Shown here piece after piece: positions 18,591 through 30,151 of a stretch of 64,000 nucleotides of DNA. The stretch's first letter is position 1. Every line of letters begins with the position of its first letter. Both the position numbers and the translations under genes were made by a program. This stretch comes from Exiguobacterium acetylicum. Lineage in GTDB: Bacteria; Bacillota; Bacilli; Exiguobacteriales; Exiguobacteriaceae. The notes beneath the pieces were generated by a model. That model saw only the letters and a list, made by a program, of their open reading frames with translations, made no database searches and had not been told where the DNA came from. Where the stretch lies: positions 2,957,501 through 3,021,500 of the forward strand of contig NZ_CP082333.1 of the NCBI RefSeq assembly GCF_019890935.1, written 5' to 3'.

Positions 18591-21044
18591 TTAGATGAAC
18601 AGATTCAGATTGGCACCGTCCGTTGCACCAAGGTAACTCGCGACACCACCGTAATCAATGCCGTCGAGGAGTTCTTCCTTCTTGATGCCCATGATATCCA
18701 TCGACATCGTGCAGGCGATCATCCGGACACCGGCTGCTTGCGCTTTTGCCATCATCGTCTCGAGTGCATCGACTTGTTTATCCTTCATGACTTTTTTCAT
18801 CATTTTTTGACCGGCGCCTGCCATGTTCATGTTCGAGAGCGGTAACTCCCCGGCATGCTTCGGCATCATCATGCCCATCATCCGTTCAATGCCGGCTTTC
18901 TCGACTGCCGGTGCGTCTGGTTTTCGAATGATATTCAAGCCCCAGAACGTAAAGAACATCGTCACTTGTTTCCCCATCGCTTGTGCACCTTGTGCGATGA
19001 CGAAAGAAGCGAGTGCTTTATCGAGATCACCACTGAAGACGACCATCGTCGCATCATCTGCTGGATTGACTTGAACCGGCGCTGGAGCTGGTGTCTCTCC
19101 TTGCCCTTTTTCAAGCATAACCTCGACGACACCTTGATTCATCTCCGCTGAATGAACTGTGTGACCTAGTTTTTTCGCCCATGCTTGAACGTCTGGTAAG
19201 AATCCTGGGTCCGACGCCTTGACGAAAATTTGCTCGCCGTCCGTCATCTGATCAATTTTTGTTTTCAGCTCTAAGATTGGACCTGGGCACTGTAAGCCGC
19301 ACGTATCGAGCAGCGTCACTTGTTCTGGTGCAGTCTTCGTTGTTGGCTCACGTTTCGTTACCGTCACAGCAGTCTCCTCCTTCGCTTGGCTTCGTGCTTC
19401 TTGATCACGACGCACGACCGACCATGTTTTGTATCCGCCGCTTAAGTTTTTCACATCATAACCGTGTTGTTGCAACAGTTGACTCGCAACATATCCACGT
19501 AATCCGACTTGGCATGTCACATAGATCGTTTGATCCTTCGGCAGATCAGTCAACTTCTCACGTAACGTCGGTAACGAGATATTAATCGATCCCGGAATCG
19601 CGCCTAACTCGTTTTCCGATGGTTCACGGACATCGAGTAATAAGCCACCGTTGGCGACGATCGCATCGATTTCGTGCCAATGAACGTTCGCACTGTCACC
19701 AAGCACGATGTTCGACGCAATATATCCTGCCATGTTGACCGGATCTTTTGCTGAACTATATGGCGGTGCATATGATAGTTCGAGATCTGGTAGATCAAGC
19801 ACTGTCAATCCACCTTTAATCGCTGTCGCGAGGACATCGATTCGTTTCTCGACACCTGTCATGCCGATTGCCTGCGCTCCGTAGATCGTTCCTTCGATTG
19901 GATCAAACAGTAGCTTCATCGAAATCGGACTCGCCCCTGGGTAGTATCCCGCATGAGATCCCGGGTGGAGATGCACGGCTTCATAACGAAGACCGAGCTG
20001 ACGCAACCGTTTTTCATTGTTACCGGTCGAAGCGACCGTCAAATCAAAGACTTTTGCTACCGCTGTTCCGAGTGTGCCACTGTACCGAACGTCGCGTCCA
20101 GCGATGATGTCAGCAACGAGGCGTCCTTGACGGTTTGCCGGCCACGCGAGTGGAACGTGTGTCGCTTCCTTCGTGATATAATCTTTAACTTCAATCGCGT
20201 CACCAATCGCAAAGATCGATGGATCGGATGTCCGCAATTGATCGTCGACTTGAATCGTCTGTTTGATGCCAAGTGTTAAACCAGCATCTGCTGCGAGCGT
20301 ACTCTCCGGTGCAACACCAATTGATAAGATATTCATCTCTGTTTCGATCACGCGTCCGCTTGTCAGGACGACGCGGCGACCTGCCTCTTCAAAACGAGCG
20401 ACACCATCTTCTAGAATCAACTCGACGCCTTTCGCACGCAGATGTTCATGAACGATGGCTGCCATTTCCGGGTCGACCGGAGCCATGACTTGATCCGCCA
20501 TCTCGACGAGGGTGACGTGCGCCCCACGTTCGACGAGGTTTTCTGCCATTTCGAGACCGATGAATCCTCCACCGATGACGACTGCCCGCTCTGGACGCGT
20601 CGTATCGACGTATTCCCGCATCCGGTCCGTATCCGGAATGTTCCGTAACGTAAAGACGTTTGTTGCATCTTCAAGTCCTGGAATGTTTGGACGGATCGGT
20701 TTTGCGCCTGGAGAAAGAATCAGATGATCATACGATTCATCGTATTCTTCACCCGTTTCGACGTTGCGGATCGTGACCGTCTTCGCTTCACGGTTGATCC
20801 GAATCGCTTCCGACAAATTGCGGACATCTAAATTAAACCGCGCGTGCATGCCTTCTGGCGTTTGGACGAGTAATTTATTGCGATCCTTGATAACGTCTCC
20901 GATATAGTAAGGCAGTCCGCAGTTCGCGAACGAAATCTCTTTTCCACGCTCGAGTAAAATGATTTCAGCCGTTTCGTCAATCCGGCGCAGTCGCGCTGCT
21001 GCCGTGGCGCCGCCTGCGACGCCGCCTACGATGATCGTTTTCAT
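18591..21044 (-). CDS. CoA-disulfide/persulfide reductase fused to rhodanese, TusA-like and DsrE-like domains
   Basis: 817 residues from the ATG MKTIIVGGVAGG (AAGGAGG upstream). Order: FAD/NADH-dependent reductase (1-450) with redox Cys42 in FANCGLPYYIGD; rhodanese (about 470-555) with active-site Cys in YVTCQVGLRGY; TusA/SirA-like sulfur carrier (about 590-660) with TCGLQCPGPILE; DsrE/F-like domain (about 680-817) with MIACTMSMDIMG. The first two domains are the CdrA-RHD type that reduces CoA disulfide or persulfide with NADH; the others carry persulfide sulfur. The fusion probably detoxifies or relays reactive sulfur species. The upstream palindrome suggests repression by a CsoR/CstR-type sensor. 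Confidence 0.93.
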   Translation of the reverse strand: MKTIIVGGVAGGATAAARLRRIDETAEIILLERGKEISFANCGLPYYIGDVIKDRNKLLVQTPEGMHARFNLDVRNLSEAIRINREAKTVTIRNVETGEEYDESYDHLILSPGAKPIRPNIPGLEDATNVFTLRNIPDTDRMREYVDTTRPERAVVIGGGFIGLEMAENLVERGAHVTLVEMADQVMAPVDPEMAAIVHEHLRAKGVELILEDGVARFEEAGRRVVLTSGRVIETEMNILSIGVAPESTLAADAGLTLGIKQTIQVDDQLRTSDPSIFAIGDAIEVKDYITKEATHVPLAWPANRQGRLVADIIAGRDVRYSGTLGTAVAKVFDLTVASTGNNEKRLRQLGLRYEAVHLHPGSHAGYYPGASPISMKLLFDPIEGTIYGAQAIGMTGVEKRIDVLATAIKGGLTVLDLPDLELSYAPPYSSAKDPVNMAGYIASNIVLGDSANVHWHEIDAIVANGGLLLDVREPSENELGAIPGSINISLPTLREKLTDLPKDQTIYVTCQVGLRGYVASQLLQQHGYDVKNLSGGYKTWSVVRRDQEARSQAKEETAVTVTKREPTTKTAPEQVTLLDTCGLQCPGPILELKTKIDQMTDGEQIFVKASDPGFLPDVQAWAKKLGHTVHSAEMNQGVVEVMLEKGQGETPAPAPVQVNPADDATMVVFSGDLDKALASFVIAQGAQAMGKQVTMFFTFWGLNIIRKPDAPAVEKAGIERMMGMMMPKHAGELPLSNMNMAGAGQKMMKKVMKDKQVDALETMMAKAQAAGVRMIACTMSMDIMGIKKEELLDGIDYGGVASYLGATDGANLNLFI

Positions 21045-21079
21045 CTGATGATTCCTCCTTGAATTTCTATCTGTCACCT

Positions 21080-21783: not shown

Positions 21784-21820
21784 AAAACGGCTTTGGAGCC
21801 CTGCTCCGAAGCCGTTTTTT
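21784..21820 (+). terminator. Terminator after the YbjN-domain gene
   Basis: AAAACGGCTTTGGAG and CTCCGAAGCCGTTTT pair with one T-G pair, followed by seven T; it separates this gene from the iron-regulated operon. Confidence 0.9.
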
Positions 21821-21834
21821 TCTTTAAAGTTCAA

Positions 21835-21863
21835 TTGACAATGAGAATTATTCTCGCTATAGT
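21835..21863 (+). promoter_or_regulatory. Fur-boxed promoter of the FTR1/glycan operon
   Basis: TTGACA (21835-21840), a 17-base spacer and TATAGT (21858-21863). The spacer contains a 7-1-7 palindrome TGAGAAT-T-ATTCTCG (21842-21856), close to the Fur consensus TGATAAT-N-ATTATCA. A bound repressor would block polymerase, so the operon should be derepressed under iron limitation. PerR or Zur sites have related sequences, but Fur fits best with the FTR1 gene downstream. Confidence 0.8.
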
Positions 21864-21928
21864 TAGATTTGTGAAAACGACTACATGACGGAAAACGTCT
21901 TATTAATTCTTCTGGGGGAATCACGATT

Positions 21929-23113
21929 ATGAAAAAACGTTTAAAAGTAGCTTCGATCTTCATGGTAGCCGGTATCTTGGCTGCCTGCGGTTCGAATGAA
22001 ACGGATACGACTGCACCGAAAAAAGAGAAAACGGAACAGTCGACCGAAACTAAATCAGCAGATGCGGGGATCGCTGCAACGACACTGACAGATGAATTGA
22101 CGATCTTCAGCTCAATCAAAACAGAACTCGACAAAGCAAAAGAAGGACAAGCGATCGATTGGAAGATGGTCACGACAAGTTATGAATCGAAACTAAAAGG
22201 TGGTGTCGAGACGACAGCACCAGAAATCGAACAAGTCATCCAGTCTGCTTTAGCAGGTGTAGATGCGAAGGATCTCGATGAGAACATCGCTCGTCAACTC
22301 GTGGATAAAGGTCTACAATCGTATTTCTATAAATTACAAAAAGCAACACAAGCAAAAGCTGAAGAAGCACTCGTAGCTGGTAAACCGGAAGCTGCAACGG
22401 AAGCACTCAAGGACGTGGAAGCGATGGCGAAGACCGTCTTCATTCCGACAGCTGAAAAACGGGACGCGAGCTACGGCTTCAAAAACGAAGACGCCATCGC
22501 TCAAGCGATCACATCAGGTCTTTCAGCTCAGCAAGAAGCCATCGACGCGAAAGAAATCGGTGACTTCAATGTTGCGAAACAAGTAACGGATAAATCGATT
22601 TATCGTTCCTTCTATTTAGCTGCACTCGGTTATGCACAAAAAATCGAGGATGGCGTCAAAGCCGGTACGGACGAAAAAGAATTACAAATGGAGCAGGCAG
22701 AGGGATATGGCTTCCTCCTCGCGATCGAAGAATCATTAGCGGGCGGAGACGAAGAAGCTGTCAAAACGCTGAAAGAGCGCTATGATTTCTCGAAAACAAA
22801 ACCAGCTGATGTCTCTTACAAAGAAATCGAAGGATTGTTCGCAAAAGCGTTGACGGAAAAAGTCGACGGGTATCATGAAGAGGCACAAGAAGCGATCGAG
22901 AAGAAAGACGTCGATACAGCACGTGCCGAAGCAATGGAAGCGAACATGTTCGTCGTTGCGATGAAACCGACGCTTGAGAATCGTCTTGGCAAGGACAAAG
23001 CAGCGCAAGTCGCAAAAGACGCAAACGAATGGTTCGCACTCGTCGAAAAAGGCGACGTCAAGGCTGAAACGACAGGTGAACGGATTACAGACGCACTCGA
23101 ACCACTTAACTAA
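21929..23113 (+). CDS. Helical lipoprotein, first gene of the Fur-boxed operon
   Basis: 394 residues. Lipoprotein signal ends ILAACGSN (Cys20), then a polar linker and an acidic, almost entirely helical body. There are related segments such as DKGLQSYFYKLQKATQAKAEEAL and DKSIYRSFYLAALGYAQKIE followed by a glutamate-rich MEQAEGYGFLLAIEES, so internal duplication is likely. The layout recalls the extracytoplasmic helical domain attached to many FTR1 iron permeases, or EfeO/EfeM lipoproteins; I cannot prove either. Expected at the outer face of the membrane, possibly binding iron through acidic helices. GGGGGAA lies 8 bases from the ATG. No terminator before the next gene. Confidence 0.75.
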   Translation: MKKRLKVASIFMVAGILAACGSNETDTTAPKKEKTEQSTETKSADAGIAATTLTDELTIFSSIKTELDKAKEGQAIDWKMVTTSYESKLKGGVETTAPEIEQVIQSALAGVDAKDLDENIARQLVDKGLQSYFYKLQKATQAKAEEALVAGKPEAATEALKDVEAMAKTVFIPTAEKRDASYGFKNEDAIAQAITSGLSAQQEAIDAKEIGDFNVAKQVTDKSIYRSFYLAALGYAQKIEDGVKAGTDEKELQMEQAEGYGFLLAIEESLAGGDEEAVKTLKERYDFSKTKPADVSYKEIEGLFAKALTEKVDGYHEEAQEAIEKKDVDTARAEAMEANMFVVAMKPTLENRLGKDKAAQVAKDANEWFALVEKGDVKAETTGERITDALEPLN

Positions 23114-23139
23114 GAAGGAAATGGAAACGGAGGGATAAG

Positions 23140-24051
23140 ATGAATATCGGAATCACAGGAGGTGCCGGCTTCATTGGCGCCGCCCTCGCCCTCCGGCTCC
23201 AGCAGCACCATACCGTCCATGTCCTTGATGCTTTCACGGACTACTATGATGTCCAGTTAAAAGAAGAACGAGCAGATGAACTAAGACGTGCCGGTGTTAC
23301 CGTTACGACGGGTGACGTTCATCACGATCTCGACGCCTGGATGGAGAGGTCGTTCGACGCTGTCTTTCATCTCGCAGCACTTCCTGGTGTTCCGCGCTCG
23401 CTCGAAGAACCGCATCACTATATTCGTGAGGACATCGATATGACGGTGACCTTGTTAGAAGCCGCAAAAAGACATGGCATGCCGCATGTCTTTTTCGCGT
23501 CTTCTTCTTCCGTTTACGGGGAGCAGACAGGTCCACTGAAAGAGGAACAGGCAACAGGACACGTCGCCAGTCCTTATGCGGCAGCCAAGTATAGTGCCGA
23601 AAGCTTTTGCCATGCTTATGCTCATTTATATGATGTAAACGTGACGCTGTTTCGCTTCTTTACGGTCTATGGTCCATCGGGTCGTCCCGATATGGCGCTG
23701 TTTCGTTTCATTGAACAGGCATTACGCGGAGAGACACTCACCGTCTTCGGTGATCCAATCCGTGACTTCACGTATATCGATGACATCACCCGTGGAATGG
23801 AACAGGCGTTGCTGGCTCGTGCAGTCGGGACGTATAACCTCGGTGCGAATCAGCCGGTCTCCGTCCGCACGCTAGCTGAACGGATCGGTCAACGGTTTGA
23901 TGTGCCTGTGCAGACTCAAACTGCACGACGCGGAGACGTGACGATGACATGGAGTGATACGACGGCAGCACAGAAAGCCTTCGGTTACCAACCGTCAATC
24001 GAGATCGATGTTGGACTGGAGCAGGTGATCACGTGGCATCAAAACCGCTGA
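23140..24051 (+). CDS. NAD-dependent sugar-nucleotide epimerase/dehydratase (extended SDR)
   Basis: 303 residues. Rossmann motif GGAGFIGAALA at 7-17; catalytic serine and YAAAK in SSSSVYGEQTGP and SPYAAAKYSAE; substrate segment GDPIRDFTYIDD. Closest in layout to UDP-glucuronate 4-epimerase or UDP-glucose 4-epimerase. It would supply an activated sugar to the glycosyltransferases of the same operon. CGGAGGG precedes the ATG, 26 bases after the lipoprotein stop. The exact sugar cannot be read. Confidence 0.88.
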   Translation: MNIGITGGAGFIGAALALRLQQHHTVHVLDAFTDYYDVQLKEERADELRRAGVTVTTGDVHHDLDAWMERSFDAVFHLAALPGVPRSLEEPHHYIREDIDMTVTLLEAAKRHGMPHVFFASSSSVYGEQTGPLKEEQATGHVASPYAAAKYSAESFCHAYAHLYDVNVTLFRFFTVYGPSGRPDMALFRFIEQALRGETLTVFGDPIRDFTYIDDITRGMEQALLARAVGTYNLGANQPVSVRTLAERIGQRFDVPVQTQTARRGDVTMTWSDTTAAQKAFGYQPSIEIDVGLEQVITWHQNR

Positions 24052-24887
24052 TTCGAACGTTTCTGTACCTGACGCTTACCGGACTTGTCATCTTTTTACT
24101 GCTCCGTTTTTTCTTGGAGTTACCGGTTTCGTATCGGTACATTGAAGCTTTATTCAAGAGTCCGTGGACGATCCTTGCGACCTTGACGTATGCGATCGCC
24201 TTTTATTTACGGGCGGTCGCCTGGCGCCGCGCCGATGCAAAACGTGCACCGACCGCTGTATACCTGTCGAGCCTGTATCTCGGACTGACGATCAATCATC
24301 TCTCACCGGTCAAACTGGGAGAGATGATCCGACTCGTGACGGCGAGAGCCGTCGGAAGTCCATGGAAGCAGACGAGCGCGATCTTCGTCTTACAACGAAG
24401 TATTGACTTGATCGTTCTGTGTACCTTCATTTTGATCGGTTGGTTGTTTCACCCGATCGTCTTGCTCGTCGCGCTCCTTGCGACCGCGTTATTGTTCGTG
24501 TTACGCCGACATGTTCCGCATCTCCCATCGCTCGTTCTGTTCGGAACGCTCGCTTGGACCGTCGAGGCTCTCGCCGTCTTCCTCCTCTTGCACGGAGCCG
24601 GTATCGATGTGTCTTTCCCGACGACATTGATCGCGATGAGTGCCGGTGTCCTGTCTGGTGTGATTCAATTCACGCCGGGTGGACTCGGTACGTACGAACT
24701 CGCGATGGGTACGGTGTTACGGCAAGCCGGTGTTGCTCATGCGTACGATGTTGCCTTGATGACGCACTTCTTTAAATATGCCTTTGCTTTTCTCATCCCG
24801 CTGTACGTTCTCATTCGGCATCCGGCTACACTTCGGTTGTTGGTTCGTCAGCTCAAATACACTGATTGGAAAGGAGGAAGACGATGA
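24033..24887 (+). CDS. UPF0104/LPG-synthase-TM-like membrane protein (flippase-like)
   Basis: 284 residues, 7-8 membrane segments. Family motifs: SPVKLGEMIRLVTAR in the first half and FTPGGLGTYELAMGTVL near the end. The family covers the membrane half of MprF and AglD-type proteins, and flippase-like proteins often found with lipid-linked sugar genes. A role in moving a lipid-linked sugar across the membrane is inferred from context only. The start is GTG, overlapping the epimerase gene by 19 bases; its end overlaps the next gene as ATGA. Confidence 0.85.
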   Translation: MASKPLIRTFLYLTLTGLVIFLLLRFFLELPVSYRYIEALFKSPWTILATLTYAIAFYLRAVAWRRADAKRAPTAVYLSSLYLGLTINHLSPVKLGEMIRLVTARAVGSPWKQTSAIFVLQRSIDLIVLCTFILIGWLFHPIVLLVALLATALLFVLRRHVPHLPSLVLFGTLAWTVEALAVFLLLHGAGIDVSFPTTLIAMSAGVLSGVIQFTPGGLGTYELAMGTVLRQAGVAHAYDVALMTHFFKYAFAFLIPLYVLIRHPATLRLLVRQLKYTDWKGGRR

Positions 24888-26320
24888 AAAGTGCTTCTCG
24901 CTTTGAAAAAGTCGCAGCACGCGCCTGGAACTTACTCAATGAAGGAAAACCCTTCACACCCATTTTTACGATCGGCGTCTTTTTGACGTACGCCTTATGG
25001 ACGCAGATGCCACTCGCAGAAGCTGGTCTTGGTTTCATCGTGACGCTTCCTTTGTTTATCTTGCTTTGGCGTTATGATTTTCCGTTATTTTTACGAAATT
25101 ACCTTTGGATTCCAGTCATCGTTTGGCTGTTCCTTCGGGGTACGAATGCAGATTATTTACCTTTGTTCGCCTATGGCGCAGGTCTCTATTTCTTCTTTAC
25201 GATATTTTTCTGGGGGACAATCTATTATCATCTCCGGATCGGAACGCGCTGGACGAACTTCACGCGCTTTTGGAAACTCGTTCTAAAGAATAGTGATTCG
25301 ACAAGTGGTAACGCGCAGGAGCAACTGCCTAAGGTTGCTCTGTTGCTCATGTACTGGTGGACGGCAAGTGACGCGTCGACACTCGACATGACGTTCATCT
25401 GGTTCCCAATTGGTCTATTCGTCTTTGCATGGATCCTGCATCACTACCTGTTCGACTGGAAACCGAAGTTGCCCGAGGCAATGACGGTAGATGCCAATCT
25501 TCCGACTTCAGAAAAAGTCTATGTCCTGATTGTCGACGGGATGCGTAAAGATCGCTACATGGCAGCAAACACGCCGTTCCTCGAGCGATTGCGTCAGGAA
25601 GGAACGGAATATACGAATATGGAGACGGTTTACCCTGCCCGGACCGTCGTCTGCTTCAGTTCGATGTTCACCGGTGCTCGTCCGGAAGATCACGGCATTC
25701 ATTCGAACATGGTCTGGAATACGACCGGCGTTAAAACGGATACCGTCTTCGATCGCCTCCGTGCCGTTGATAAGTCAGGAAAAATCCTTGGTATCGCACA
25801 CCTTGTCGATGCGTTCGGTTCAACTGACGTACGGACCGTCACGGCAGTCATGCATAACGATGTTGCGGATCGAAATATCGTAGAGCGTGCCAAACAAATC
25901 GTCCATGAAGAGGATCCGGATCTGCTCGCGATTCAGTTGATTGGAACGGATCAAACAGGACACAGTCGAGGCACTCTCTATTCCGAGTATGTCGAAAAAA
26001 TCGAGGAAGCGGATGCGCTCCTTTCCGAGTTTTGTGAGGAGCTCGATCGCCTTGGTAAACTCGAGGATGCGACACTCATCGTCATGGCGGATCACGGTCA
26101 AGCGGACGGAATCGGTGGACACGGTCACTTGGATGAAGGCGAACGGTTCGTCCCGTTCTGGATGTATGGTAAGAACGTTCATGCCGGTCTAAAAGTCGAT
26201 ACGCACCGTCATATCCTGTCACTCGGACCGACGATCACCAAAATCCTAGGGGCAGACATCCCGCACGATAGCCGCGGTGTGCTATTGACAGAAGCGTTCA
26301 AGGAGGCGAAGTCTAAATGA
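24884..26320 (+). CDS. Membrane-anchored alkaline-phosphatase-superfamily hydrolase (phosphodiesterase type)
   Basis: 478 residues from the ATG with GGAGG 5-6 bases upstream; an earlier TTG lacks a ribosome site. Residues about 22-190 hold several membrane segments. The C-terminal half is a metal-dependent domain: VDGMRKDRYM, nucleophile threonine in PARTVVCFSSMF, GTDQTGHSRG, MADHGQADGIGGHGH. The two-metal residues of nucleotide pyrophosphatase/phosphodiesterases are present. It may act on a lipid-linked sugar phosphate or modify an extracellular glycan; the substrate is unknown. Overlaps its neighbours on both sides by four bases. Confidence 0.85.
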   Translation: MKSASRFEKVAARAWNLLNEGKPFTPIFTIGVFLTYALWTQMPLAEAGLGFIVTLPLFILLWRYDFPLFLRNYLWIPVIVWLFLRGTNADYLPLFAYGAGLYFFFTIFFWGTIYYHLRIGTRWTNFTRFWKLVLKNSDSTSGNAQEQLPKVALLLMYWWTASDASTLDMTFIWFPIGLFVFAWILHHYLFDWKPKLPEAMTVDANLPTSEKVYVLIVDGMRKDRYMAANTPFLERLRQEGTEYTNMETVYPARTVVCFSSMFTGARPEDHGIHSNMVWNTTGVKTDTVFDRLRAVDKSGKILGIAHLVDAFGSTDVRTVTAVMHNDVADRNIVERAKQIVHEEDPDLLAIQLIGTDQTGHSRGTLYSEYVEKIEEADALLSEFCEELDRLGKLEDATLIVMADHGQADGIGGHGHLDEGERFVPFWMYGKNVHAGLKVDTHRHILSLGPTITKILGADIPHDSRGVLLTEAFKEAKSK

Positions 26321-27045
26321 AGATCATCGTCTTTTTACCAGCTCACAATGAGGAAGTGTCGCTCCCGCTCGTCTTAAAACGAATTCCGGACATGATTGAC
26401 GGCATTCCAGTCGAGACCCTCGTCATCGACGACGGCTCAGTGGATGCGACGAGTACGATCGCGCGTCAACACGGCGCACATGTCTATCGGTTCGAGCAGA
26501 ATCAAGGACTCGGCGCTGCAGTCCGGGAAGGACTCCGCCAGTCCTACGAGCTCGGCGCTGATGTTGCTGTCATGATTGATGCCGATAACGAATATCCGGC
26601 CGATCAAATTCCGGATATCGTCCGACCAATCTTACACGATCAGGCCGACTACGTATTCGGTTCCCGCTTCCTCGGTACCGTCGACGGGATGCGGCTCTAT
26701 CGCTATATCGGCAATCATGTCTTCACGTGGTTGCAATGCCTTTTATTGAAACGTAAAATCCATGATGGTCAAAGTGGGATGCGTGCTTTTTCACGCGCAG
26801 CGTGTCACCATGCTGAGATCATTCACGATTATAACTATGCCCAAGTATTGACCCTCAATCTCGTCCGAAAAGGCTTCCGCCTTCACGAAGTTCCGATTCG
26901 TTATCGGGTCCGGGAAGCAGGAAAGTCCTTTATCCGTCTGAATTATGTCCAACGTGTCCTCCCAGCGATTTACCGGGAGTGGCGACGACCGATCACACAG
27001 CTTAGCGTTGAAGAACGCATGGAACGAAAGGAGCACCTCGGATGA
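26317..27045 (+). CDS. Family 2 glycosyltransferase (polyprenyl-phosphate sugar synthase-like)
   Basis: 242 residues: FLPAHNEEVSLPLVLKRIP, TLVIDDGSVDATS, the DXD-type VMIDADNEYPADQI and the acceptor segment HDGQSGMRAFSR. No C-terminal membrane domain, as in soluble DPM1-type enzymes that transfer a sugar to polyprenyl phosphate at the inner membrane face. It would make the donor for the GT-C enzyme encoded at the end of the operon. ATGA overlaps at both ends. Confidence 0.9.
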   Translation: MKIIVFLPAHNEEVSLPLVLKRIPDMIDGIPVETLVIDDGSVDATSTIARQHGAHVYRFEQNQGLGAAVREGLRQSYELGADVAVMIDADNEYPADQIPDIVRPILHDQADYVFGSRFLGTVDGMRLYRYIGNHVFTWLQCLLLKRKIHDGQSGMRAFSRAACHHAEIIHDYNYAQVLTLNLVRKGFRLHEVPIRYRVREAGKSFIRLNYVQRVLPAIYREWRRPITQLSVEERMERKEHLG

Positions 27046-27776
27046 AACGCCTTCTTTTGCTACCGCTCCTCCTGCTCTCACTATTCGTGAGCACTTCCAC
27101 TGTTTCCGCTTATAGTTACGGAGACCCAGGAAAGGAAGCTTTTGCGGAAGCGTATAAACAATTTGAAGAACAACTCGATGCTAAAGATTACGCGCTTGCG
27201 AAAGAGACGCTTGCCGCCTATGATAAAGAATTCAAACTGTATTTCCCTGAAGCGAAAGCGAAGATCGATACGGCGCTTGAACAAGAAGATGCCGAGGCTG
27301 CCAAACAAGCGTACCGCGTCGCTCTCCGTCAAAATATCGAACGTCGCCTGCACTTTGCTGAAGAGCAGTTCGAGGACTTCGGTCAAGCGAAGCTCTTACT
27401 TGCGAAAGCCCGCGGGACATACGATGTGCTCGCGCCTTACGTCAAGGAAAGCAAGGATGCACAAACATCCGATGACGTGTATACTGCATTTGATGAATCC
27501 TTAAAAGCACTCGGAAATCCTGGTCTGTTTGGGGTCGGGAAAAAAGCGAGTGACGAAGAATCCTTCAAGAAAAACATTACGATGATCGAAGATACGTTGA
27601 CTCCTCTCTTCGTCCTGCCGGGTGAAGAAAAAACAGGCGTCTTCACGGAAGAAGACTCCTTCCTCGGTCAAACGTTCGGAACGGACGCGATTTGGAAATT
27701 GATTGCGCTCGGACTCGTCATCGTACTCATCGTCATCGTCGTCATTGGTCAATGGAAGAAGAAACGCCGCTCATAA
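27042..27776 (+). CDS. Secreted helical protein with C-terminal membrane anchor, FTR1 partner candidate
   Basis: 244 residues. Signal peptide with cleavage near VSAYSYGDPGK; a helical, acidic body (about 25-200) with FEEQLDAKDYALAKETL, HFAEEQFEDFGQAKLLLAKA and repeated Glu/Asp; one membrane segment (WKLIALGLVIVLIVIVVIG) and a KKKRRS cytoplasmic end. The body resembles the extracytoplasmic N-terminal domain fused to some FTR1 permeases, here encoded separately just before FTR1. Direct iron binding is an inference. Overlaps the GT2 gene as ATGA; FTR1 starts 12 bases later. Confidence 0.78.
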   Translation: MKRLLLLPLLLLSLFVSTSTVSAYSYGDPGKEAFAEAYKQFEEQLDAKDYALAKETLAAYDKEFKLYFPEAKAKIDTALEQEDAEAAKQAYRVALRQNIERRLHFAEEQFEDFGQAKLLLAKARGTYDVLAPYVKESKDAQTSDDVYTAFDESLKALGNPGLFGVGKKASDEESFKKNITMIEDTLTPLFVLPGEEKTGVFTEEDSFLGQTFGTDAIWKLIALGLVIVLIVIVVIGQWKKKRRS

Positions 27777-27788
27777 GGAGGAAGACAG

Positions 27789-28706
27789 ATGGATTTTCAA
27801 GCGTTTTTGATTACGCTTCGGGAGTGTCTCGAGGCTGTTCTCATCGTTGGGTTGATCTTAGGTTATCTCGATCGATTGAACGCTCCACAATATAAAAAGT
27901 GGGTCTACGCAGGTGTCGGATTGGCACTTCTCGCTAGCCTTGGTGTCGCGTTCCTGTTCCAAGTCGTCTTTACGAGTTTTGCGAGCTTCGGAAGCGATAC
28001 GTATCTGCGTCTCGGCATCATGATGGTCTCCGTCCTGCTCTTGACACACATGGTCCTCTGGATGGGGAAGGAAGCGAAAGAGAATCAACAAGCCTCCCAA
28101 GCGAAGGTTGCCGCTGCCGTCTCGACGGGTAGTGCCATCACGATGATCATCCACTCCTTCCTCGTCATCGTTCGAGAAGGAATTGAGACCGTCTTCTTCT
28201 TCGCTGCCATCTCAGGTGGGGAAATCGAAAAAGTACTGACGAGTTATGGTGCGGTTTCCGGTCTGTTACTCGCCTTGATCTTCGGATACTTATTCGTTTC
28301 CGGCTCCATGAAGATTCCCGTCAAACGTTTCTTCCAAGTGACGGGCGTACTCATTCTATTCATCGCAGCCGGCATGCTCGTCCAAACGATTGGACGCTTC
28401 CAAGATCTTGGTTTGCTCGGTAGTCTTTTGATGAATGCTGACGGCACACCAGCTGCTGTATACAATATCGTCGGCTTCATGCCGGAGCACTACATCGATC
28501 AGGTGCAATACTTGCGTGATACAGGAAATTCAACATTGATCAGTGGACAGATCGGAACGTTCATGGGTGCGATGTTCGGGTACAGCCATAACCCATCGCT
28601 CGAACAAGTCGTCGCTTGGTGGGGCTACTTCGCCTTTGCCGGTTGGATGTTGCTCCGTCAAAACAAACCATCGAAGTCATCAAAGTCCTTACAGGAGGTT
28701 TCTTGA
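27789..28706 (+). CDS. FTR1 family high-affinity iron permease (EfeU-like)
   Basis: 305 residues, seven membrane segments. Both iron-path REXXE motifs are intact: RECLE at 11-15 and REGIE at 129-133. FTR1 proteins move iron through the membrane, usually with an oxidase or periplasmic iron-binding partner. No DyP peroxidase (EfeB) or cupredoxin EfeO gene follows, so the two helical extracytoplasmic proteins of the same operon are the best partner candidates. GGAGG with 8-base spacing. The stop overlaps the TTG start of the next gene. Confidence 0.94.
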   Translation: MDFQAFLITLRECLEAVLIVGLILGYLDRLNAPQYKKWVYAGVGLALLASLGVAFLFQVVFTSFASFGSDTYLRLGIMMVSVLLLTHMVLWMGKEAKENQQASQAKVAAAVSTGSAITMIIHSFLVIVREGIETVFFFAAISGGEIEKVLTSYGAVSGLLLALIFGYLFVSGSMKIPVKRFFQVTGVLILFIAAGMLVQTIGRFQDLGLLGSLLMNADGTPAAVYNIVGFMPEHYIDQVQYLRDTGNSTLISGQIGTFMGAMFGYSHNPSLEQVVAWWGYFAFAGWMLLRQNKPSKSSKSLQEVS

Positions 28707-30079
28707 CCGTCCGAAGCGATCGTTCACGTCCGCGTGGACGGTCGCTTTTTTGGATCACGTTGCTATTTATCGGTGGCTGGATTGGTTTACGGATCAGTTA
28801 CGTCAGTCCCTTCATCGCGAGCTACGATATTGCGAACTTCACGCTCGCTGTGACCGATTATGATCTGGCTGATTTACGTCCGCACTTTCCTGGTTATCCC
28901 TTTTTCATCTTATTTGCCAACCTATTTCTGCCGCTGATGATACCTGTCAAAGCGCTCGGACTCGTCTCTACACTAGGACTGGCAAGTGCGCTCTTGCCAC
29001 TCTACTCGCTTTTCCGCCGTCATACCTATGATACGACTCGACTGATCGCTGCCTTTACCGTTCTCTCCACTGCCTCACTCGTGACGTTCGCTGCAACCGG
29101 GATGTCGGATGGGCTCGCCCTCGGACTACTCGTCTGGTACGGCTGGAGCATCGAACGCGCACGGCATCAGATTCGTCGCTGGCTTCCGTATCTTCTGTTC
29201 GGTTTACTGATGGCGACTCGCCTATCCTACGCGCCGTTTGGTTTCATGTTGCTTGTCCTGCTGTGGCAGGTGCGAAAGGATTACTGGCAACTCTTATCCG
29301 AGTGCGCCCTTCTTGTTCTGGCACAGCTTGCTTGGTTGCTCCCGGTCGCTTTTTCTGTCGGTGGACCCTATTCGTTTCTTCAATTATCACTCCGCTTCGT
29401 CAGCGGTCATTTTTCCGATTGGGGTGGTTCTGCTCAGACCGATGATGCTTCCATCGTTCAACGATTTGTTCAGACGCTTCAACAACTCTTCTGGCATGGG
29501 ATCGGTTATGGCACGTGGATCGGACTAGTGTCTGGACTGCTGCTGTTCTTACGCAGACGTTGGGCGGTCGATGTCGCTTGGGGAGCGACGGCTGGACTCT
29601 ATTTCGTCTGGGTCTGGCTCGGACAAAATATCGATAAACCCCGTCATGTCTTACCGCTTGTCCTATTGCTACTCATCTGGTTGATCCGTCAGCTTCCGTT
29701 GCGGATGTATCTGCCGTTTTTAGTCATTCAGTTGACGATCGGTAGCCTCGCGTTGAACGAGCAAGCAACGCGTCCTCCGGCGACGATTGAACTAGCACGT
29801 TACGTAACGACTCTTCCAATCGGCGCGACAGTCTTTACCGACGAGGAAGCTCGCCAATTCCAGTCCGAACGACCGGATGCCGCAATCGTTCCGATCGGTT
29901 CGGTCAGTAAATGGAATGCAGAACCAAAATCCGACCAGAGTTACGTGACCGGTCGATTGCTCGAGCGTCTTCACGCTCAAGGCGTACGACCAAACGTCAA
30001 ACAAGTCGTCCGCTTCACGAGTGATGCCCGCTACGAACCAGAAGACGCGCAAGCGATGCTGTATCAATTAACGCCTTGA
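28703..30079 (+). CDS. GT-C type polytopic glycosyltransferase (GT39/ArnT-like)
   Basis: 458 residues from a TTG that overlaps the FTR1 stop (TTGA), with AGGAGG just upstream; the open frame begins earlier but inside FTR1. About 10-11 membrane segments. The first outer loop has acidic residues (SYDIANFTLAV) and PHFPGYPFFIL, the layout of GT-C enzymes that take sugar from polyprenyl phosphate and add it to acceptors outside the membrane. A soluble C-terminal segment of about 100 residues follows. The acceptor is unknown; operon context suggests surface proteins or lipids linked to iron uptake. Confidence 0.82.
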   Translation: MTVRSDRSRPRGRSLFWITLLFIGGWIGLRISYVSPFIASYDIANFTLAVTDYDLADLRPHFPGYPFFILFANLFLPLMIPVKALGLVSTLGLASALLPLYSLFRRHTYDTTRLIAAFTVLSTASLVTFAATGMSDGLALGLLVWYGWSIERARHQIRRWLPYLLFGLLMATRLSYAPFGFMLLVLLWQVRKDYWQLLSECALLVLAQLAWLLPVAFSVGGPYSFLQLSLRFVSGHFSDWGGSAQTDDASIVQRFVQTLQQLFWHGIGYGTWIGLVSGLLLFLRRRWAVDVAWGATAGLYFVWVWLGQNIDKPRHVLPLVLLLLIWLIRQLPLRMYLPFLVIQLTIGSLALNEQATRPPATIELARYVTTLPIGATVFTDEEARQFQSERPDAAIVPIGSVSKWNAEPKSDQSYVTGRLLERLHAQGVRPNVKQVVRFTSDARYEPEDAQAMLYQLTP

Positions 30080-30100: not shown

Positions 30101-30151
30101 AAAAACCATGCGATTCCCGAATGACACCGTGGAAATCGACATGGTTTTTTT
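30101..30151. terminator. Terminator closing the FTR1/glycan operon
   Basis: AAAAACCATGCGATTCC pairs with GGAAATCGACATGGTTTTT with small bulges, followed by T7; probably also serves the convergent GNAT gene. Confidence 0.85.

Follow-up and report, generated by a model that had tools for sequence, protein, structure and literature searches.

FTR1 permeases are known to operate with ferroxidases, such as the fungal Fet3, and their known partners also include EfeO and EfeB. In the rhizobial RgtE/RgtA-D system, polyprenyl-phosphate galacturonate is produced by a DPM1-like glycosyltransferase of family GT2 and used by GT-C glycosyltransferases, which transfer the sugar onto lipid A. Here, we analyzed a stretch of 64,000 nucleotides from Exiguobacterium acetylicum (NZ_CP082333.1, positions 2,957,501 to 3,021,500; the window), in which an operon of eight genes joins an FTR1 permease to a set of glycan genes. 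It encodes a helical lipoprotein (gene 1), a nucleotide-sugar epimerase (gene 2), a flippase-like membrane protein (gene 3), a membrane phosphodiesterase (gene 4), a GT2 protein (gene 5), an exported helical protein (gene 6), an FTR1 permease (gene 7) and a GT-C protein (gene 8). Our leading reading, to which we assign a probability of roughly 0.55, is a Fur-controlled iron uptake system in which the FTR1 permease would act together with a glycosylation pathway devoted to placing a uronic acid outside the cytoplasm. That the genes form one co-inherited system under Fur-like control is highly probable. An earlier reading of the sequence alone had proposed such a union of FTR1 with an extracytoplasmic glycan pathway, and this is strongly supported: the genes are conserved and are inherited and lost together, and Fur-like boxes stand ahead of them. 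The further ideas of that reading, that the glycan might build or protect an iron-capture layer or might decorate two candidate iron-binding proteins, stay hypothetical. The active-site motifs are intact. No description of the system was found in the titles and abstract beginnings of open-licence PMC papers, and PMC4744853, which was checked, is unrelated.

On the iron side, the operon resembles EfeUOB and EfeUOB-M in its FTR1/EfeU permease with two RExxE motifs, in Fur-like control and in extracytoplasmic helical partners. It differs in that its FTR1 falls into a distinct clade and in the added glycan pathway. None of the eight operon proteins reached the cut-off of the M75 family (EfeO) or matched the DyP family (EfeB), and the operon is therefore not EfeUOB. 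A separate, canonical EfeUOB-like locus lies elsewhere in the same genome; its genes code for an M75 protein, a DyP peroxidase and an FTR1 of 582 residues whose N-terminal domain is helical. On the glycan side, RgtE/RgtA-D differs from the operon in having a Gram-negative lipopolysaccharide acceptor and no FTR1. Weak likeness to the families PMT (GT39) and TMEM260 (GT117) was seen in homologues of the GT-C protein, not in the window protein itself, and instead of mannose the operon probably uses a uronic acid as donor. Three-component extracytoplasmic glycosylation (PMC11127046) shares with the operon a GT-C enzyme, a GT2 protein like a polyprenyl-phosphate sugar synthase, a sugar-setting epimerase and a candidate flippase. 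Unlike that system, the operon has a candidate flippase of the UPF0104 type and not of the MATE type, and it adds the iron permease, two helical proteins, the phosphodiesterase and Fur-like boxes.

Conservation was surveyed in 398 sampled genomes of the class Bacilli. Within the genus, this FTR1 and the GT-C were each found in 17 of 19 genomes, and all eight genes stand in identical order in the window and in all 16 other fetched FTR1-bearing loci. In the second genus of the family, none of 19 genomes had any FTR1 or the lipoprotein. A profile of the FTR1 subfamily separated 54 genomes of the survey (447-541 bits) from all others (at most 178 bits). These 54 genomes span 18 families, and several of these families (for example f8, f12, f14, f15, f17, f22 and f36) also include genomes with only other FTR1 types. 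Every one of the 54 genomes also has the GT-C, at the same locus as FTR1 in 50. The co-occurrence table (54/0/3/341) yields a Fisher p of ∼1e-63, and leaving out Exiguobacterium (37/0/3/339) still yields ∼3e-48, both values being uncorrected for relatedness. In a tree of 58 FTR1 proteins, the 41 system members formed an exclusive clade (support 0.94, midpoint root). None of genes 2-6 or 8 was found at 17 control loci carrying other FTR1 types (L100, L200-L215); three of these loci gave weak matches to the lipoprotein profile (20-21 bits), over short stretches that partly cover the signal region. Thus the set is conserved well beyond the source genome, and the co-occurrence around FTR1 genes that the sequence-only reading had suggested looking for exists within Bacilli, with none of the 17 loci of other FTR1 types sharing it.

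Searching the same 398 genomes with the GT-C gave 57 matches, 40 of them outside the genus. In 38 GT-C regions beyond the genus, matches at E < 1e-8 were obtained for the helical protein (35), phosphodiesterase (34), GT2 (34), FTR1 (33), lipoprotein (29), epimerase (24) and flippase-like protein (23). These 38 unnamed loci were picked by GT-C. A further 80 named loci were picked by a phosphodiesterase profile search of genome contigs, as the best 80 of 219 relatives, and comprise 23 genus names, among them Bacillus, Geobacillus, Anoxybacillus, Paenibacillus, Rossellomorea, Fictibacillus, Pontibacillus and Tepidibacillus. GT2 and phosphodiesterase were present in all 80, followed by GT-C (78), FTR1 (77), the helical protein (77), the flippase-like protein (75), the lipoprotein (72) and the epimerase (68). 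The gene order was that of the window in 50 named loci, and the phosphodiesterase adjoined GT2 in 80 of 80. The two samples share some genomes (for instance L161 and L265, with equally long contigs and the same dehydrogenase scores) and were therefore not summed as independent; 118 is a number of loci and not of genomes. In three genomes (G305, G092 and G130) the donor genes lie at a second genomic site. In these split donor modules (L327-L329) a gene of ∼335-350 residues follows GT2 on its 3' side, and the two such proteins scanned showed a weak match, below the cut-off, to the C-terminal domain of UDP-glucose/GDP-mannose dehydrogenases. In many Bacillaceae the system sits between a putative electron-transfer-flavoprotein/thioredoxin-like pair and a UvrC-like gene (L226, L237, L255, L263, L279, L287 and others). 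This chromosomal slot is fixed in at least 14 of 23 UvrC-flanked loci, and the location in Exiguobacterium differs. The phosphodiesterase had no match among 72,556 plasmid records.

The genes also disappear together. In two relatives (G010 and G011) the lipoprotein is kept and genes 2-8 are gone; a short 3' remnant of the GT-C gene indicates that they were deleted. The operon promoter and its box have decayed (box 12/19). Between these two genomes, the ratio of nonsynonymous to synonymous substitution (dN/dS) of the lipoprotein was 0.43, a value resting on small counts, compared to 0.009-0.034 among four genomes with the full operon; the neighbours YbjN and YitT did not exceed 0.053. Both genomes retain the long FTR1. 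Only three genomes have the GT-C without this FTR1. In G366 the GT-C (L157) carries six in-frame stops and lies beside a UvrC-like gene, and neither FTR1, phosphodiesterase nor the helical gene was found in the genome, apparently a second loss of the whole system. G390 retains a short piece of the GT-C together with a stop-containing relic of the phosphodiesterase. In G115 a 4.7-kb contig ends inside the GT-C gene, after the lipoprotein and helical genes.

Fur-like boxes were scored as the number of matches, out of 19 positions, to a Fur-box consensus, and are consensus matches only. Of the 80 named loci, 74 have a box of at least 14/19 ahead of the first gene, compared to 24 of 1918 equally sized control windows taken outside the operon; for at least 15/19 the counts were 65 of 80 and 3 of 1918, respectively. 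Internal genes rarely had one (epimerase 2/60, flippase-like 1/67, phosphodiesterase 1/80, GT2 0/80, FTR1 4/77, GT-C 5/78), the exception being the helical gene, with an upstream box in 66 of 77. When positions were taken from the conserved YSYG codon, a box of 15-18/19 preceded the helical gene in all 68 named loci outside Exiguobacterium and in none of the 9 Exiguobacterium loci. Among the unnamed loci, 22 of 35 helical genes had a box of at least 14. Because of this second box, most Bacilli are predicted to have two Fur-controlled units, one with the lipoprotein and donor genes and one with the helical protein, FTR1 and GT-C. In Exiguobacterium the two units are fused by a four-base overlap. 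Boxes are also mostly kept where parts are scattered: ahead of lone FTR1 genes (G166 15, G195 14, G059 15), GT-C modules (G166 17, G195 16), permease modules (G305 17, G092 16, G130 15), the helical gene that stands alone in G195 (15) and the donor module of G305 (15). The sequence-only reading had described one Fur-boxed promoter and would have counted separate promoters for the glycan genes against itself. Outside Exiguobacterium this is half the case: each half has its own box there, and the predicted control is still shared.

The features of the operon are listed in Table 1. The close packing of the eight plus-strand genes and the Fur-boxed promoter ahead of gene 1, both recognized earlier, were confirmed. 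The seven junctions are, in order, +26, -19, -4, -4, -4, +12 and -4 bases, with refined starts at ATG 24884 for gene 4 and TTG 28703 for gene 8; the GT-C start overlaps the FTR1 stop by four bases. An internal terminator had been said to be lacking, and every terminator-like match within the operon does lie in coding sequence (17 matches in the region on both strands versus 10.1 ± 3.1 in shuffled sequences). Transcription from one promoter throughout is less certain, since 12 promoter-like matches versus 6.7 ± 2.5 in shuffled sequences leave room for internal promoters. The protein names proposed earlier hold, with Pfam supporting epimerase, PF03706, phosphodiesterase, GT2 and FTR1. In the scan of the eight operon proteins, no Pfam cut-off was reached by gene 1, gene 6 or the window GT-C. 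Adjoining the operon on the minus strand (18591-21077) is a gene for a long fused oxidoreductase with, by eye, rhodanese, TusA-like and DsrE-like parts; it is conserved as the operon's neighbour in the genus.

Table 1. Features of the operon in the window, and the separate EfeUOB-like locus of the same genome.
Feature	Position	Strand	Remarks
Terminator-like hairpin following YbjN-like gene (operon boundary)	21784..21818	+	16-pair stem, strong
Sigma-70-like promoter TTGACA-17-TATAGT	21835..21863	+	11/12 matches
Fur-like box GACAATGAGAATTATTCTC, inside promoter	21837..21855	+	15/19 to consensus
Gene 1, helical lipoprotein	21929..23113	+	no Pfam family; lipobox Cys20; model pLDDT 88.8
Gene 2, nucleotide-sugar epimerase, predicted UDP-glucuronic acid 4-epimerase	23140..24051	+	PF01370 2.1e-52
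Gene 3, UPF0104/PF03706 flippase-like membrane protein	24033..24887	+	PF03706 3e-21
Gene 4, membrane protein with ENPP-like phosphodiesterase domain	24884..26320	+	PF01663 5.2e-30; predicted metal ligands and nucleophile Thr254 intact
Gene 5, DPM1-like GT2, predicted polyprenyl-phosphate sugar synthase	26317..27045	+	PF00535 5.3e-23; 5mlz 1.6e-16
Gene 6, exported helical protein with C-terminal membrane anchor	27042..27776	+	YSYG...LGNPGLFG motifs
Gene 7, FTR1 permease, distinct subfamily	27789..28706	+	PF03239 1.3e-39
Gene 8, GT-C glycosyltransferase, PMT/TMEM260-like	28703..30079	+	family matches in homologues; PHFPGYP motif
Weak terminator-like hairpin 3' of operon	30126..30145	+	
EfeUOB-like locus	G000:C1:1629000-1647000 (L100:5600-9310)		M75-DyP-long FTR1

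The glycan proteins were compared with known families and solved structures. Gene 3 matched PF03706 at 76.6 bits (cut-off 33.4) and remained below the cut-off of the flippase-like model TIGR00374. In gene 4, Asp218, Thr254, Asp356, His360, Asp403, His404 and His413 are invariant among 35 sequences. The nearest solved chain of gene 5 is the dolichol-phosphate mannose synthase 5mlz, and gene 5 is classed as a predicted polyprenyl-phosphate sugar synthase of family GT2. The GT-C homologues matched PMT_2 in 24 of 38 and TMEM260-like families in 18 of 38 cases, in each case weakly; the window protein matched neither at E 0.1. Asp44 is invariant and the motif PHFPGYP occurs in 115 of 115 proteins, and gene 8 is assigned as a putative GT-C glycosyltransferase. 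Comparison of profiles of genes 1, 6, 7 and 8 with PDB sequences gave nothing convincing.

The best solved relatives of the epimerase are 5u4q, 6zl6 and MoeE5. We take 6zl6 to be the UDP-glucuronic acid 4-epimerase of B. cereus. Gene 2 aligned with it over residues 1-295 (E 3.6e-43), and the two share the Arg in TVYGPxxRPDM, a motif also common to 5u4q and MoeE5 and absent in the UDP-glucose 4-epimerase 4zrm. The R of RPDM aligns with residue 185 of 6zl6; according to PMC12338863, Arg185 of the B. cereus enzyme binds the carboxylate of UDP-galacturonate. Among the operon epimerases, RPDM is found in 109 of 109 (four preceded by VFGP or VYGT), as is the Ser-Tyr-Lys pattern. Gene 2 is accordingly named a predicted UDP-glucuronic acid 4-epimerase. 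Independently of the epimerase, a nucleotide-sugar dehydrogenase surfaced in gene clustering of the operon flanks. Using a home-made profile, it was located within 153 bases of a system gene on the same strand at 12 of 118 loci. The NDP-sugar dehydrogenase cut-off was passed by all 10 proteins scanned (nine of those twelve and the more distant one of L143), and four such enzymes above the cut-off are encoded elsewhere in the source genome. NDP-sugar dehydrogenases of this kind make uronic acids. Taken together, the conserved carboxylate-binding Arg and the dehydrogenases added at 12 loci suggest that the sugar is a uronic acid, and a polyprenyl-linked uronic acid is the probable donor.

Gene 7 matched PF03239 at 136.7 bits, and the motifs RExxE and REG[VI]E were present in 110 of 110 proteins, which places it, by sequence, in the FTR1 iron permease family. 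In gene 1, the lipobox Cys20 is invariant (alignment A7). Gene 6 has a stalk ahead of its anchor. In several Paenibacillus-type loci this stalk is long and measures 116-121 residues with 23-25% Ser and Thr (three measured). Long stalks rich in Ser, Thr, Pro and Ala occur in Paenibacillus members, those of L147, L150 and L159 being similarly long; in the other 47 proteins measured, the window's included, the stalk has 18-32 residues. The composition of the long stalks suggests that they may be glycosylated. The acceptor would then be a protein, gene 6 and/or gene 1, for which we see a chance slightly below even. Separately, a C-terminal domain of the copper-amine-oxidase N1 type was found in gene 1 of all three Paenibacillus-type proteins scanned (L150, L159, L249), and gene 1 of L150 and L159 has no lipobox. 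In gene 6 of G195 (L336) a similar end replaces, by eye, the membrane anchor.

A kinship of the helical proteins with EfeO was considered and rejected as unproven. EfeM, Algp7 and EfeO took ranks 2-4 in a Foldseek search with gene 6, at E 0.65-1.0, and neither model (gene 1 or gene 6) gave a Foldseek match at E ≤ 0.001. Their best VIA Z scores were 10.1 and 9.7, a range that is unreliable for helical bundles. Gene 6 homologues matched PF09375 (M75) at E ≤ 0.1 in 23 of 53 cases, the best at 18.7 bits (cut-off 23.5) over ∼35 residues, and the match of gene 1 to M75 was confined to the N-terminal signal and linker. Comparison by hhalign with 15 M75 proteins (of 21 loci) gave probabilities of 9 and 18 percent. 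The idea that a helical protein is the detached N-terminal domain of the long FTR1 proteins was likewise rejected (hhalign: gene 6, 16 percent; gene 1, 0.6 percent). A distant relationship between genes 1 and 6 themselves is possible, with hhalign values of 97 and 94 percent, which helical composition can inflate.

In the mechanism we propose, low iron would release Fur from the operon. UDP-glucuronate would be supplied by a nucleotide-sugar dehydrogenase, encoded in the cluster at some loci, and epimerized by gene 2 to UDP-galacturonate. The GT2 protein would load the uronic acid onto polyprenyl phosphate, gene 3 may aid the loaded sugar in crossing the membrane, and the GT-C would attach it to an acceptor outside the cytoplasm, for which the gene 6 stalk and/or the gene 1 lipoprotein are the likeliest candidates. 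The resulting anionic glycoprotein beside FTR1 could collect iron or pass it on, in the place that EfeO and EfeB hold in EfeUOB. The phosphodiesterase perhaps trims or phospho-decorates the glycan. That the glycan itself is used directly to handle iron is a tentative part of this scheme, with odds clearly under even. Somewhat more doubtful is the furthest version, a glycan-dependent metal permease in which the glycosylation product is a required iron-handling part of FTR1 that replaces EfeO and EfeB in many genera of Bacilli.

Several observations weigh against the leading reading. The epimerase is absent from 12 of 80 named loci, and its top solved match, 5u4q, is labelled dTDP-glucose 4,6-dehydratase. 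None of the 10 scanned dehydrogenases reached the TuaD equivalog cut-off. The Fur-like boxes are consensus matches; 6 of 80 named loci have none at the first gene, and scores are low for the donor modules of G092 (10) and G130 (12) and for the helical gene that stands alone in G166 (11). The synonymous divergence (dS) of the relic lipoprotein from full-operon genomes is raised (0.55-0.67), so its drift may partly reflect divergent origin. In the window's genus the gene 6 stalk is short (19 residues) and not rich in Ser or Thr. Finally, the partners of the GT-C in G166 and G195 are the phosphodiesterase and GT2, not FTR1 or the helical protein, and linkage therefore leaves the acceptor unfixed.

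This last point bears on the alternative that survives best, in which the GT-C places the uronic acid on a wall or surface polysaccharide, giving an iron-binding wall in iron starvation. Teichuronic acid is produced under phosphate starvation, and the curated models closest to the added dehydrogenases include TuaD of teichuronic-acid synthesis, whose cut-off they do not reach. GT-C enzymes of three-component systems modify polysaccharides, according to PMC11127046. We nevertheless consider a wall acceptor rather unlikely: no polymerase or polysaccharide exporter was recognized among the eight operon proteins, the family matches of the GT-C homologues are to protein O-glycosyltransferases, and in most named loci a single Fur-boxed unit joins the GT-C to FTR1 and the helical protein. 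Protein O-mannosylation contributes to stability elsewhere, and the glycan might here stabilize or shield the helical proteins or the permease without binding iron. Obligate co-inheritance with FTR1 requires only that the permease complex depend on the glycan; a probable uronic acid would, on grounds of plausibility, be an odd choice for plain shielding, and this role is improbable. Shared regulation only, with envelope remodelling and iron uptake co-located because each is useful in iron starvation, would agree with the separate boxes and the separable halves outside Exiguobacterium, but is very unlikely given that the GT-C accompanies this FTR1 subfamily in every sampled genome even where the parts lie apart, that glycan genes are missing near all 17 loci of other FTR1 types, and that genes 2-8 were lost together.

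If the leading reading is true, a glycosylation pathway would be a partner of FTR1 and a different way to present iron at the Gram-positive surface. Two helical protein families that lack names, and a GT-C resembling PMT and TMEM260, would also gain functions, and glycosylation of proteins or of the wall would be tied to iron starvation. The fixed pairing of the permease with the glycan genes in many relatives of Bacillus hints at sugar-assisted iron uptake.

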